From a virus: a stretch of DNA of 27,480 bases. Positions 222 through 2,879 of the stretch are shown one piece after another (the first letter of the stretch is position 1; each line of letters starts with the position of its first letter). Position numbers and translations under genes: made by a program. The notes beneath the pieces are model-generated. The model was not told where the DNA came from. It saw nothing but the letters and a program-made list of their open reading frames with translations, and made no database searches. The stretch lies in the IMG/VR virus record IMGVR_UViG_3300013104_000068, positions 1-27,480 of that record; one strand, 5' to 3'.

Positions 222-1046
222 GTGAGTACGACAGTCATGGCAGCGTGTTGGCCACTGCAGATGCCGCCCACGCAAAAGGCGGTGCTGGTATCCCTGGCTG
301 ACAACGCAAACGACACAGGCCACTGCTGGCCGTCGATCAACAAGATCGCCGAGCGTACATGTTTTGGCCGGACTGCCGTGATGGCGGCGATTGCATGGCT
401 CGAAGAAAACGGAGCGATAACCGCTGACCGATCCAACGGTCGGCACACCTCCTACATGGTCACTCCGTCGACTTACAACCAGTCCGTTTCCCGGACCGGT
501 CCGGCAGAACAACCGGTCCGGCAGGCGGACACAACCAGTCCGGCAGGCGGACCGCACCAGTCCGTTTCCCGGACCGCACCAGTCCGGCAGGCGGACTCTA
601 ACCGTAAAGAACCATCACGAACCGCCAAGAGCAACCGTCATATACCCGCGACATCCGTTTACGATTTTTCGACATGGCCAGATGAACCCGACCCGGGAAC
701 GTTCGCCGATTGGTTGGCCATGCGGAAACAAAAGCGAGCACCAGTGACAGGCACGGTGATCCGCGGCATGGGAAAGCAACTGCACATCGCTGCAGGTATG
801 GGCTGGTCGGTAGACGAATGCCTCACCGAGTGCGCGGTGAGGAATTGGCAGGGGCTACGCGCCGAATGGCTCGAATCGAAGGTGCAAAAACGAGATGGAC
901 CACTGTGTGGCGTTCCCGGGAAAACCGTGCAATCACTGCAGAATCTTGAGGCGATGAAAAATGGATCAGACATGGATCCGCAACGAGATAGCGACCGGCT
1001 TCCAGAAGCTCGTCACGCTCAGCTTGGATCGCCAGCCGGCGGCTGA
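222..1046 (+). CDS. Phage replication initiator, lambda O-like, N-terminal helix-turn-helix
   Basis: This 274-residue protein is the likely origin-binding initiator. Residues about 15-85 (PTQKAVLVSLADNAN, then WPSINKIAERTCFGRTAV) match the winged helix-turn-helix found at the N-terminus of many phage replication proteins. A low-complexity linker (about 87-130, rich in S, R, P, Q) follows and is encoded by the iteron array at 478-596. The C-terminal part (about 140-235) would contact the loader. A GTG start at 222 is chosen because GGAGG at 206-210 lies 11 bases upstream, whereas ATG 237 is 26 bases away. It overlaps the next gene by 86 bases. Initiator followed by loader is the lambda O-P order. 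Confidence 0.72.
   Translation: MSTTVMAACWPLQMPPTQKAVLVSLADNANDTGHCWPSINKIAERTCFGRTAVMAAIAWLEENGAITADRSNGRHTSYMVTPSTYNQSVSRTGPAEQPVRQADTTSPAGGPHQSVSRTAPVRQADSNRKEPSRTAKSNRHIPATSVYDFSTWPDEPDPGTFADWLAMRKQKRAPVTGTVIRGMGKQLHIAAGMGWSVDECLTECAVRNWQGLRAEWLESKVQKRDGPLCGVPGKTVQSLQNLEAMKNGSDMDPQRDSDRLPEARHAQLGSPAGG
478..596 (+). repeat. Iteron array inside the initiator gene: candidate replication origin
   Basis: Six copies of the core ACC(A/G)GTCCG begin at 478, 495, 512, 534, 556 and 578, with spacings of 17, 17, 22, 22 and 22. Five units contain a dyad GTCCG-N5-CGGAC (482-496, 516-530, 538-552, 560-574, 582-596); the unit at 495 is a half-site. The units come in two kinds: spacer TTTCC (478, 556) and spacer GCAGG (512, 534, 578). 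In lambda, O binds dyad iterons within its own gene, beside an A/T-rich segment. Here an A-rich stretch follows from about 597 to 678. Origin function is inferred from position and architecture. Confidence 0.7.
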
Positions 1047-1407
1047 AGTCATCCCCGGCACCGTGATGACATGGCTGGAAGTGATCACGGCAGGTCGTGA
1101 ATTCACACCTGAGCGTGACCGCGAGCGTTTCCGATATGCATTCCGCACGTTGGCTGGGCGCTGCACACACTGGCCAGCACCGCGCGAGTTTCTGGACGCG
1201 CTGCCATCTCTGCCGGGCGCGCCGAAAGTGCTTCGCCTCGACAGCGACGACAACAAGCGCCGCGGCATGCAAGCGCTGAACGAGATTGCCGAGCGCATGG
1301 GGTGGATCGACGCCGATGGCGATGCGAATCCGAACAGCCTCGCCGACTGCCTGAAAACCAAGCCGGTGAAACCGTACACGGAGGTCGACGATGACTCCGT
1401 TGCGTGA
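961..1407 (+). CDS. Replication protein P-like helicase loader
   Basis: The 148-residue product resembles lambda P-type proteins, which bring the host DnaB helicase to the initiator at the origin. The resemblance lies in the N-terminal helical part and in a segment with WLEVITAGREFTPERDRERFRYAFRTLA followed by WPAPREFLDALP (about residues 38-82; second run from the tryptophan at 72). It is shorter than lambda P (about 233 residues). The start ATG 961 has a TGAGG-type site about 9 bases upstream and lies inside the end of the initiator gene. Its stop lies inside the next gene, so translation is probably coupled. The assignment rests on gene order and weak family resemblance. Confidence 0.55.
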   Translation: MDQTWIRNEIATGFQKLVTLSLDRQPAAEVIPGTVMTWLEVITAGREFTPERDRERFRYAFRTLAGRCTHWPAPREFLDALPSLPGAPKVLRLDSDDNKRRGMQALNEIAERMGWIDADGDANPNSLADCLKTKPVKPYTEVDDDSVA

Positions 1408-2205: not shown

Positions 2206-2604
2206 TTAGCCCGCCATCGCCTGCACGGCAGCCCTGGCCAAGAACCCGCTACGGGTTTCGCCATGCTTGGCCGCGTAGTCGTCGATCGTGCCGACGAGGC
2301 GTTCCGGCAGCGTGATGTTGAGCCGTACTGCCTTGCCGTTGATCTTGCTGATGTCCACGGTCACGACGAACCAGGTCCAGCCCTTGTACGCCTTGGCGCG
2401 GGTCAGAGCGGCAAGGTCGGACGGTTCCGGAAACGCCTCACCGCGCTCCGCGTAATCCTCCAGGCCAAGCAGGATCGCGTCTTCGGCATTGGCGATGGCT
2501 TCGTCCAGCGTGTCGCCAGCGGAGAACACACCCGGGAGATCGGGCACAGCGACGCCGTAGGCGGTCTTGTCATTGCCCATTTCGATGGCGATGGGATAGC
2601 GCAT
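2206..2604 (-). CDS. hicB: HicB antitoxin
   Basis: The 132-residue antitoxin has an N-terminal HicB partial RNase H-like domain (YPIAIEM, then YGVAVPDLPGVFSAGDTLDEA and NAEDAILLGLE) and a C-terminal ribbon-helix-helix DNA-binding segment (about 92-131, AVRLNITLPERLVGTID). It would bind and neutralise HicA and repress the operon. ATG 2604 is used because the HicB fold begins there; upstream codons of the open frame read through hicA in another frame. It lies 47 bases downstream of the toxin gene. Both genes run against the phage operon, indicating an inserted accessory module. Confidence 0.88.
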   Translation of the reverse strand: MRYPIAIEMGNDKTAYGVAVPDLPGVFSAGDTLDEAIANAEDAILLGLEDYAERGEAFPEPSDLAALTRAKAYKGWTWFVVTVDISKINGKAVRLNITLPERLVGTIDDYAAKHGETRSGFLARAAVQAMAG

Positions 2605-2651
2605 GGTCTTCTTGCCTCTCTTCGGTATTTCTTGACTGTGTTGCCGAGGTT

Positions 2652-2828
2652 TCACACCCCGGCTTGCTTTCTGATCGCGGCCACAAGGCCTTTGCCGAGG
2701 TCTTTCTTCGGGTGCGGGACGATCACGGTCACACCCATGTCGTTGCGCAGCTTGTGGTGGCTGCCGCGCACGCTGATGACAGCGAAACCGTGGGACTTCA
2801 GGAGTTTGATGAGGTCTGCGCTGTTCAT
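2652..2828 (-). CDS. hicA: HicA toxin (mRNA interferase)
   Basis: This 58-residue protein matches HicA closely: a first helix (SADLIKLLKSHGF), strand VISVRGSHHKL with the catalytic histidine in GSHHK (24-25), then VTVIVPHPKKDLGKGLVAAIRKQAG. HicA has a double-stranded-RNA-binding-like fold and cleaves mRNA. The start at 2828 fits the usual HicA N-terminus; ATG 2837 is possible. Toxin-first order is normal for hicAB. The catalytic residues are present, so it appears intact. In a prophage it may aid stability or act against other phages, which is inference. Confidence 0.88.
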   Translation of the reverse strand: MNSADLIKLLKSHGFAVISVRGSHHKLRNDMGVTVIVPHPKKDLGKGLVAAIRKQAGV

Positions 2829-2879
2829 GATGTGCATTATACACACTTTTACAGAAATGTACACATCAATACACATTAT
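2829..2879. promoter_or_regulatory. hicAB promoter/operator region, possibly divergent
   Basis: Upstream of hicA is a perfect minus-strand -10 TATAAT (plus-strand bases 2836-2841), with no good -35. It lies so close to the hicA ATG that the transcript would have little or no leader. TACACA/TGTGTA-type elements recur (2831-2834 with 2841-2846, 2860-2865, 2870-2875), giving imperfect dyads and direct repeats suited to HicB ribbon-helix-helix binding. On the plus strand, TTTACA (2848-2853) and CATTAT (2874-2879) could form a weak divergent promoter toward 2895, but their spacing is 20 bases. Confidence 0.45.

Follow-up and report, generated by a model that had tools for sequence, protein, structure and literature searches.

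A probable lambda-like replication origin, built of dyad iterons and AACC boxes, inside the gene of an HTH_36-type phage initiator

Positions 478-640 of the viral record analyzed here (27,480 bases, referred to over its full length as the window) very probably constitute a phage replication origin that is embedded, in the manner of lambda, within the linker of its own initiator gene and is bound by that protein's own winged helix. This reading is based on DNA-level selection, a conserved geometry, covariation between recognition helix and iteron, and a 3' element that follows the initiator family. Binding and origin firing at 478-640 are what we infer, and the helix-iteron covariation lends indirect support to binding of the dyads by the initiator. 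The gene and its parts are laid out as follows:

222 to 1046, plus strand: O-like replication initiator, 274 aa, GTG start, with PF13730 and phrog_391/phrog_678 profile matches
222 to 461, plus strand: winged helix-turn-helix domain, aa 1-80 (AlphaFold2 pLDDT 93-97)
462 to 671, plus strand: linker disordered by pLDDT, aa 81-150, holding the dyad array and the AACC boxes
478 to 496, plus strand: iteron 1, GTCCG-TTTCC-CGGAC at 482-496, frame 2
495 to 508, plus strand: iteron 2, degenerate, retaining just the left arm, GTCCG at 499-503
512 to 530, plus strand: iteron 3, GTCCG-GCAGG-CGGAC at 516-530, frame 0
534 to 552, plus strand: iteron 4, GTCCG-GCAGG-CGGAC at 538-552, frame 1
556 to 574, plus strand: iteron 5, GTCCG-TTTCC-CGGAC at 560-574, frame 2
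578 to 596, plus strand: iteron 6, GTCCG-GCAGG-CGGAC at 582-596, frame 0
600 to 640, plus strand: second element, four AACC boxes (AACCGTAA, AACCATCA, AACCGCCA, AACCGTCA), the proposed strand-opening element
672 to 896, plus strand: C-terminal helical domain, aa 151-225 (pLDDT 90-97 over most of the domain)

Profile searches place the protein among the PHROG "replication initiation O-like" families over the full family (phrog_391 at 6.8e-28, its best profile match, and phrog_678 at 2.7e-22) and assign its N-terminal winged helix to HTH_36 (PF13730, E=1.8e-11, 44.1 bits against a cutoff of 25); no match to PF04492 (Phage_rep_O) was found in the initiator by the same means. In the AlphaFold2 model the N-terminal domain has helices at residues 39-46 and 50-62 and wing strands at 66-69 and 77-80, and we assign the recognition helix to residues 50-62 (about nt 369-407). 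The modeled fold resembles DNA-binding winged helices, such as those of the CodY, MarR and ArsR types; a sequence search of solved structures returned winged helices of a generic kind and several designed proteins, and no solved relative of this initiator. Confidence falls in the linker to a mean pLDDT of about 50-66 per ten-residue block (residues 81-140), and the C-terminal helical domain, which has a weak YuA_Gp49 profile match, presumably contacts the helicase-loading machinery. Two neighboring loci are also of note. An ORF at 961-1407 (plus strand) that overlaps the 3' end of the initiator gene encodes a 148-aa protein, to which the phrog_8159 match (6.1e-30) assigns no function; it occupies the place of lambda P and is a candidate helicase-loading partner. 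Further on, at 2206-2876 (minus strand), a HicB-like antitoxin (PF15919, 2e-46) adjoins a small HicA-like ORF (2652-2876), likely a HicAB toxin-antitoxin pair that lies immediately beyond the replication genes on their downstream side.

The original prediction, made from the letters of the window, had described six ACC(A/G)GTCCG units at 478, 495, 512, 534, 556 and 578, and these positions are all right, as are the unit steps of 17, 17, 22, 22 and 22 bp. Five units carry the exact dyad GTCCG-N5-CGGAC (at 482, 516, 538, 560 and 582), as had been stated, and within the 27,480-base record the exact dyad is confined to this array; unit 2 (495-508) retains only the left arm, such that the array comprises five dyads and one half unit. 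Two details need amending: the spacers, supposed to alternate, run TTTCC, (GCAGA), GCAGG, GCAGG, TTTCC, GCAGG and so alternate only loosely, and the end given for the array, 596, is too short, as the AACC boxes at 600-636 are part of the same element.

The claim that the dyads exceed coding needs was borne out by two null models, one of 20,000 synonymous-codon permutations with the protein held fixed and the other of 20,000 resamplings from the codon usage of the window. Permutation reached a maximum of four dyads (once) and resampling a maximum of three; the observed five were never attained in the 40,000 synonymous versions. The exact dyads also lie in gene frames 2, 0, 1, 2 and 0, using all three frames, and the 15-mer with the GCAGG spacer is translated as VRQAD and as part of SPAGG (the TTTCC version as SVSRT). 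Since the synonymous nulls fall short of five and identical 15-mers are translated differently, selection acts at the level of the DNA, and a repeated peptide cannot explain the dyads. A repeat in the coding sequence, or plain expansion of a linker of low complexity, with no role at the DNA level would fit the disorder and tolerance of this region, and we regard it as practically negligible: the peptide-repeat reading was rejected on the three frames and the failure of the synonymous nulls, AACC chains in homologues always occupy two or three frames, and iteron identity tracks the recognition helix.

Downstream of the array, the four AACC boxes start at 600, 610, 620 and 633 (frames 0, 1, 2, 0), the first of them 3 bp past the last dyad. 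Three or more AACC boxes in a chain (accepted steps, 9-14 bp) are present in 82 of 94 non-redundant homologues chosen without reference to DNA pattern, against about 6.5 of 94 expected from synonymous shuffling; the steps are mostly 10-12 bp, every chain spans two or three frames, and the consensus in these 94 is GAACC(G/A)T(C/A)A, that is, (G)AACCRTMA. Across homologues, A+T content has a local peak on the AACC block (0.60 and 0.49 in two 20-bp bins, which is not very high in absolute terms), compared with 0.28-0.34 in the upstream array and about 0.40 elsewhere; in the window itself the values are 0.55 and 0.40 at 600-639, and those of the array are 0.2-0.35. The iterons are directly followed by a locally A+T-rich element, and by analogy the boxes may serve in strand opening. 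A DNA-only scan for AACC chains was uninformative at 43 of the 118 loci listed because it also caught AACCNT hexamer repeats and fragments at contig edges. Long AACCNT hexamer tracts unrelated to initiators were seen in viral contigs (L317, L319, L336, L353, L366 and others).

The overall layout is conserved among homologues. Because exact-dyad scoring misses the degenerate arrays of class C, spacing was measured with a mismatch-tolerant scan, which covered three iteron classes (36 class A, 19 class B and 52 class C genes, the class C dyad calls being partly mismatch-based). Upstream, the dyads are about 17 bp apart; close to the AACC boxes the distance is 21-23 bp, and in all three classes the boxes usually begin after a gap of 3-4 bp. 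The 17, 17, 22, 22, 22 series of the window, whose gene carries both dyad iterons and AACC boxes in its linker, is typical and recurs in far relatives (L023 and L053). The change from 17 to 22 bp noted in the original prediction is therefore a spacing rule conserved across iteron classes, and it may, as was suggested there, reflect cooperative binding. The comparison of homologous linker DNA that the prediction had suggested gave a consistent outcome: a 99% identical relative (L005) retains all five exact dyads, and in a 48% identical one (L006) the layout persists, with three exact dyads and further, degenerate units. Repeats followed by AACC-type boxes, some less regular, are likewise found in the HTH_36 initiators of named phages that infect Vibrio, Psychrobacter, Aeromonas, Aggregatibacter and Pectobacterium; the AACC chain is absent from the initiators of Acinetobacter phage IME284 and of the Klebsiella KpF5/E. 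coli 733R5 type. Five HTH_36-like initiators that are more distant and also contain GTCCG arrays (L023, L036, L053, L056, L068) have GAAC- or AGAACA-type repeats in place of AACC boxes, possibly a third type of 3' element.

The sequence of the dyads changes with the recognition helix. Helices with GR[TS] pair with GTCCG-N5-CGGAC, those with R54 pair with GGCA-N5-TGCC and those with Q54 pair with CGCA-N5-TGC. Among homologues gathered by protein similarity, and not chosen by their DNA, the GRT helix accompanies GTCCG in 8/8 cases and other helices do so in 0/63; for ER helices, R54 accompanies GGCA-N5-TGCC in 17/17, non-R54 in 0/39. With the helix columns left out of the alignment, the tree contains one or two well-supported independent pairs in which the helix changed, all concordant and too few for significance. 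Because the N-domain tree yielded so few supported independent events, we relied on a clustered, DNA-first test (clusters at <40% identity outside the helix; the IMG/VR sets are redundant and so were clustered, and their host ranges are uneven, with Pseudomonas and Burkholderiales dominating). Among the matches listed, triple GGCA arrays fell inside HTH_36-like ORFs at 110 of 120 loci. After clustering, and again among the matches listed, R54 occurs in 18/22 GGCA-selected genes vs 3/23 others (p=4.1e-6) and [RK]50[TS]51 in 8/9 GTCCG-selected genes vs 2/33 others (p=3.3e-6), where the iteron classes had been defined after inspection of the first gene set and the DNA-first scans provide an independent check that pools differently gathered sets.

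Natural swaps illustrate the same relationship. Outside the helix, the N domains of L221 and L052 are 79% alike; their C domains agree to 88% and their box DNA to 91%, yet their helices differ and their array DNA is only 50% alike. Conversely, L221 and L009 have the helix in common, and their array DNA is 84% alike, with C domains only 37% alike. Exceptions exist, including a few R54 helices with non-GGCA arrays (e.g., L376, L383 and L384) and FGKTAV genes (L153, L157) with GTCCG-like but degraded dyads. Further iteron classes with helices of their own (GTGTCA-N3-TGACAC, GTGAC-N5-GTCAC, GAAC-N3-GTTC and GTAAAG-N3-CTTTAC; L155, L278, L394, L170, L369, L370, L397) have too few members to extend the helix-dyad code. 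Helix residues 49-54 and the array probably change together while the boxes and all other parts of the gene are retained, as part of a self-annotating recognition code for HTH_36 O-like initiators in which each gene holds the sites of its own helix, the spacing grammar (17-bp then 22-bp) is independent of site sequence and a new, family-specific (G)AACCRTMA strand-opening element follows at helical steps.

Genes of the lambda-O type bear on which parts of the element belong to which partner. At least nine loci with GTCCG-N5-CGGAC arrays encode PF04492 proteins (L019, L027, L035, L038, L044, L051, L061, L073, L087), and like lambda and P22 they have ACACAAAAGACAACCTTCCAAAAGAC-type repeats after the array, without AACC boxes. 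Because these genes have the same dyads and yet keep lambda-type repeats, it is the recognition helix that the iteron follows and the initiator family that the 3' element follows. The presence of GTCCG-N5-CGGAC in both PF04492 and HTH_36 initiators is apparently a convergence on one site, and the tie between 3' element and family would be accounted for if the initiator's partners, or a conserved region of the initiator itself, used this element in strand opening.

Iteron plasmid origins of the RK2 and R6K type have directly repeated initiator sites beside an opening region, as proposed here, but there the iterons are not within the rep gene and the Rep proteins come from other families, unlike the in-gene array of the window. 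The closer parallel is lambda ori in gene O (PF04492) and the origins of Stx phages, which combine an N-terminal DNA-binding domain with four to six in-gene dyad iterons and have A-rich or AT-rich repeats directly downstream, in the place matched here by the A+T peak of the AACC boxes. The window likewise has inverted-repeat iterons inside an initiator gene, and the likeness to lambda ori within O, with a recognition sequence of its own, that was claimed originally is supported by the O-like profile, the position of the array in the linker, the retained layout and the dyads that follow the helix. The differences are an HTH_36 rather than a PF04492 domain, another iteron sequence, iteron steps of 17 then 22 bp against 20, 24 and 23 bp in lambda, and (G)AACCRTMA boxes instead of ACAAAAGAC-type repeats, which were not found downstream of the iterons in the window. 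Phage P22 gene 18 is similar in having an annotated rep_origin within an O-like gene, with repeats and then ACAAAAGAC-type repeats, and differs in this lambda-type 3' element and in its unrelated iteron. In-gene origin function is proven for lambda, with a plan of iterons followed by an AT-rich tract (PMC7466680). HTH_36 proteins, sharing the Pfam domain of the window initiator, occur in Stx-phage replication types Eru5, 6, 8, 11 and 13 (PMC8951638), and the word "iteron" does not appear in that paper.

On this basis, dimers of the N-terminal winged helix would use helix 50-62 to recognize each 15-bp dyad, with half-site centers 10 bp, or about one helical turn, apart. Five to six occupied units at 17-bp and then 22-bp steps would form a nucleoprotein complex ending 3-4 bp from the AACC boxes, which, with their 10-12-bp steps and local A+T peak, may be the site of strand opening or single-strand capture; the C-terminal domain would assist in helicase loading.

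Other functions for protein-bound repeats have to be weighed against this origin. The dyads could form an autoregulatory operator at which the protein shuts off its own synthesis by road-block or looping, replication starting elsewhere; winged-helix dimers on dyads are typical of repressors, as the fold matches attest, and binding within the gene could block transcription. We nevertheless consider this unlikely, as an operator rarely needs five to eight units under a fixed spacing rule together with a second element at an A+T peak, the HTH_36/phrog_391 family is annotated as replication initiators, and initiators of the lambda-O type that share the GTCCG dyads retain the element that follows the iterons in lambda. 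Autoregulation may accompany origin function. The fold matches also include the centromere binders AspA (pNOB8) and TubR, which raises the idea of a partition or centromere-like site where a winged helix on repeats segregates or anchors DNA; profile searches found no partition gene among the adjacent genes examined, and named relatives have helicase, replication P or NinG genes as neighbors, making this very unlikely.

An action in the transcript is extremely improbable. GTCCG-N5-CGGAC is able to form a boxB-like hairpin with a 5-bp stem and a 5-nt loop, but spacing and covariation track the DNA-binding helix. Such RNA hairpins were rejected on the class B and C units, which occupy the same positions with only three or four complementary pairs; stable stems are not expected, as the pairing in GGCA-N5-TGCC and GCA-N5-TGC (CCC flanking both sides) spans too few bases.

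In-gene iteron origins are already known, mainly from lambda-type O proteins. The search of the open literature, to which our claim of novelty is limited because it covered open papers, returned no report of this array type, the spacing rule, the helix code or AACC boxes in HTH_36 initiators. The origin proposed here extends the same in-gene principle to a separate and large family of initiators, marked by a strict geometry and by a second element. A DNA-reading helix and its own sites stand together in each gene, so that large numbers of phage sequences amount to paired protein-site data obtained without a binding assay, and such pairs make winged-helix specificity, prophage origin incompatibility and a minimal grammar of initiator complexes testable. 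The layout also offers a simple way of marking origins in uncultured phages.
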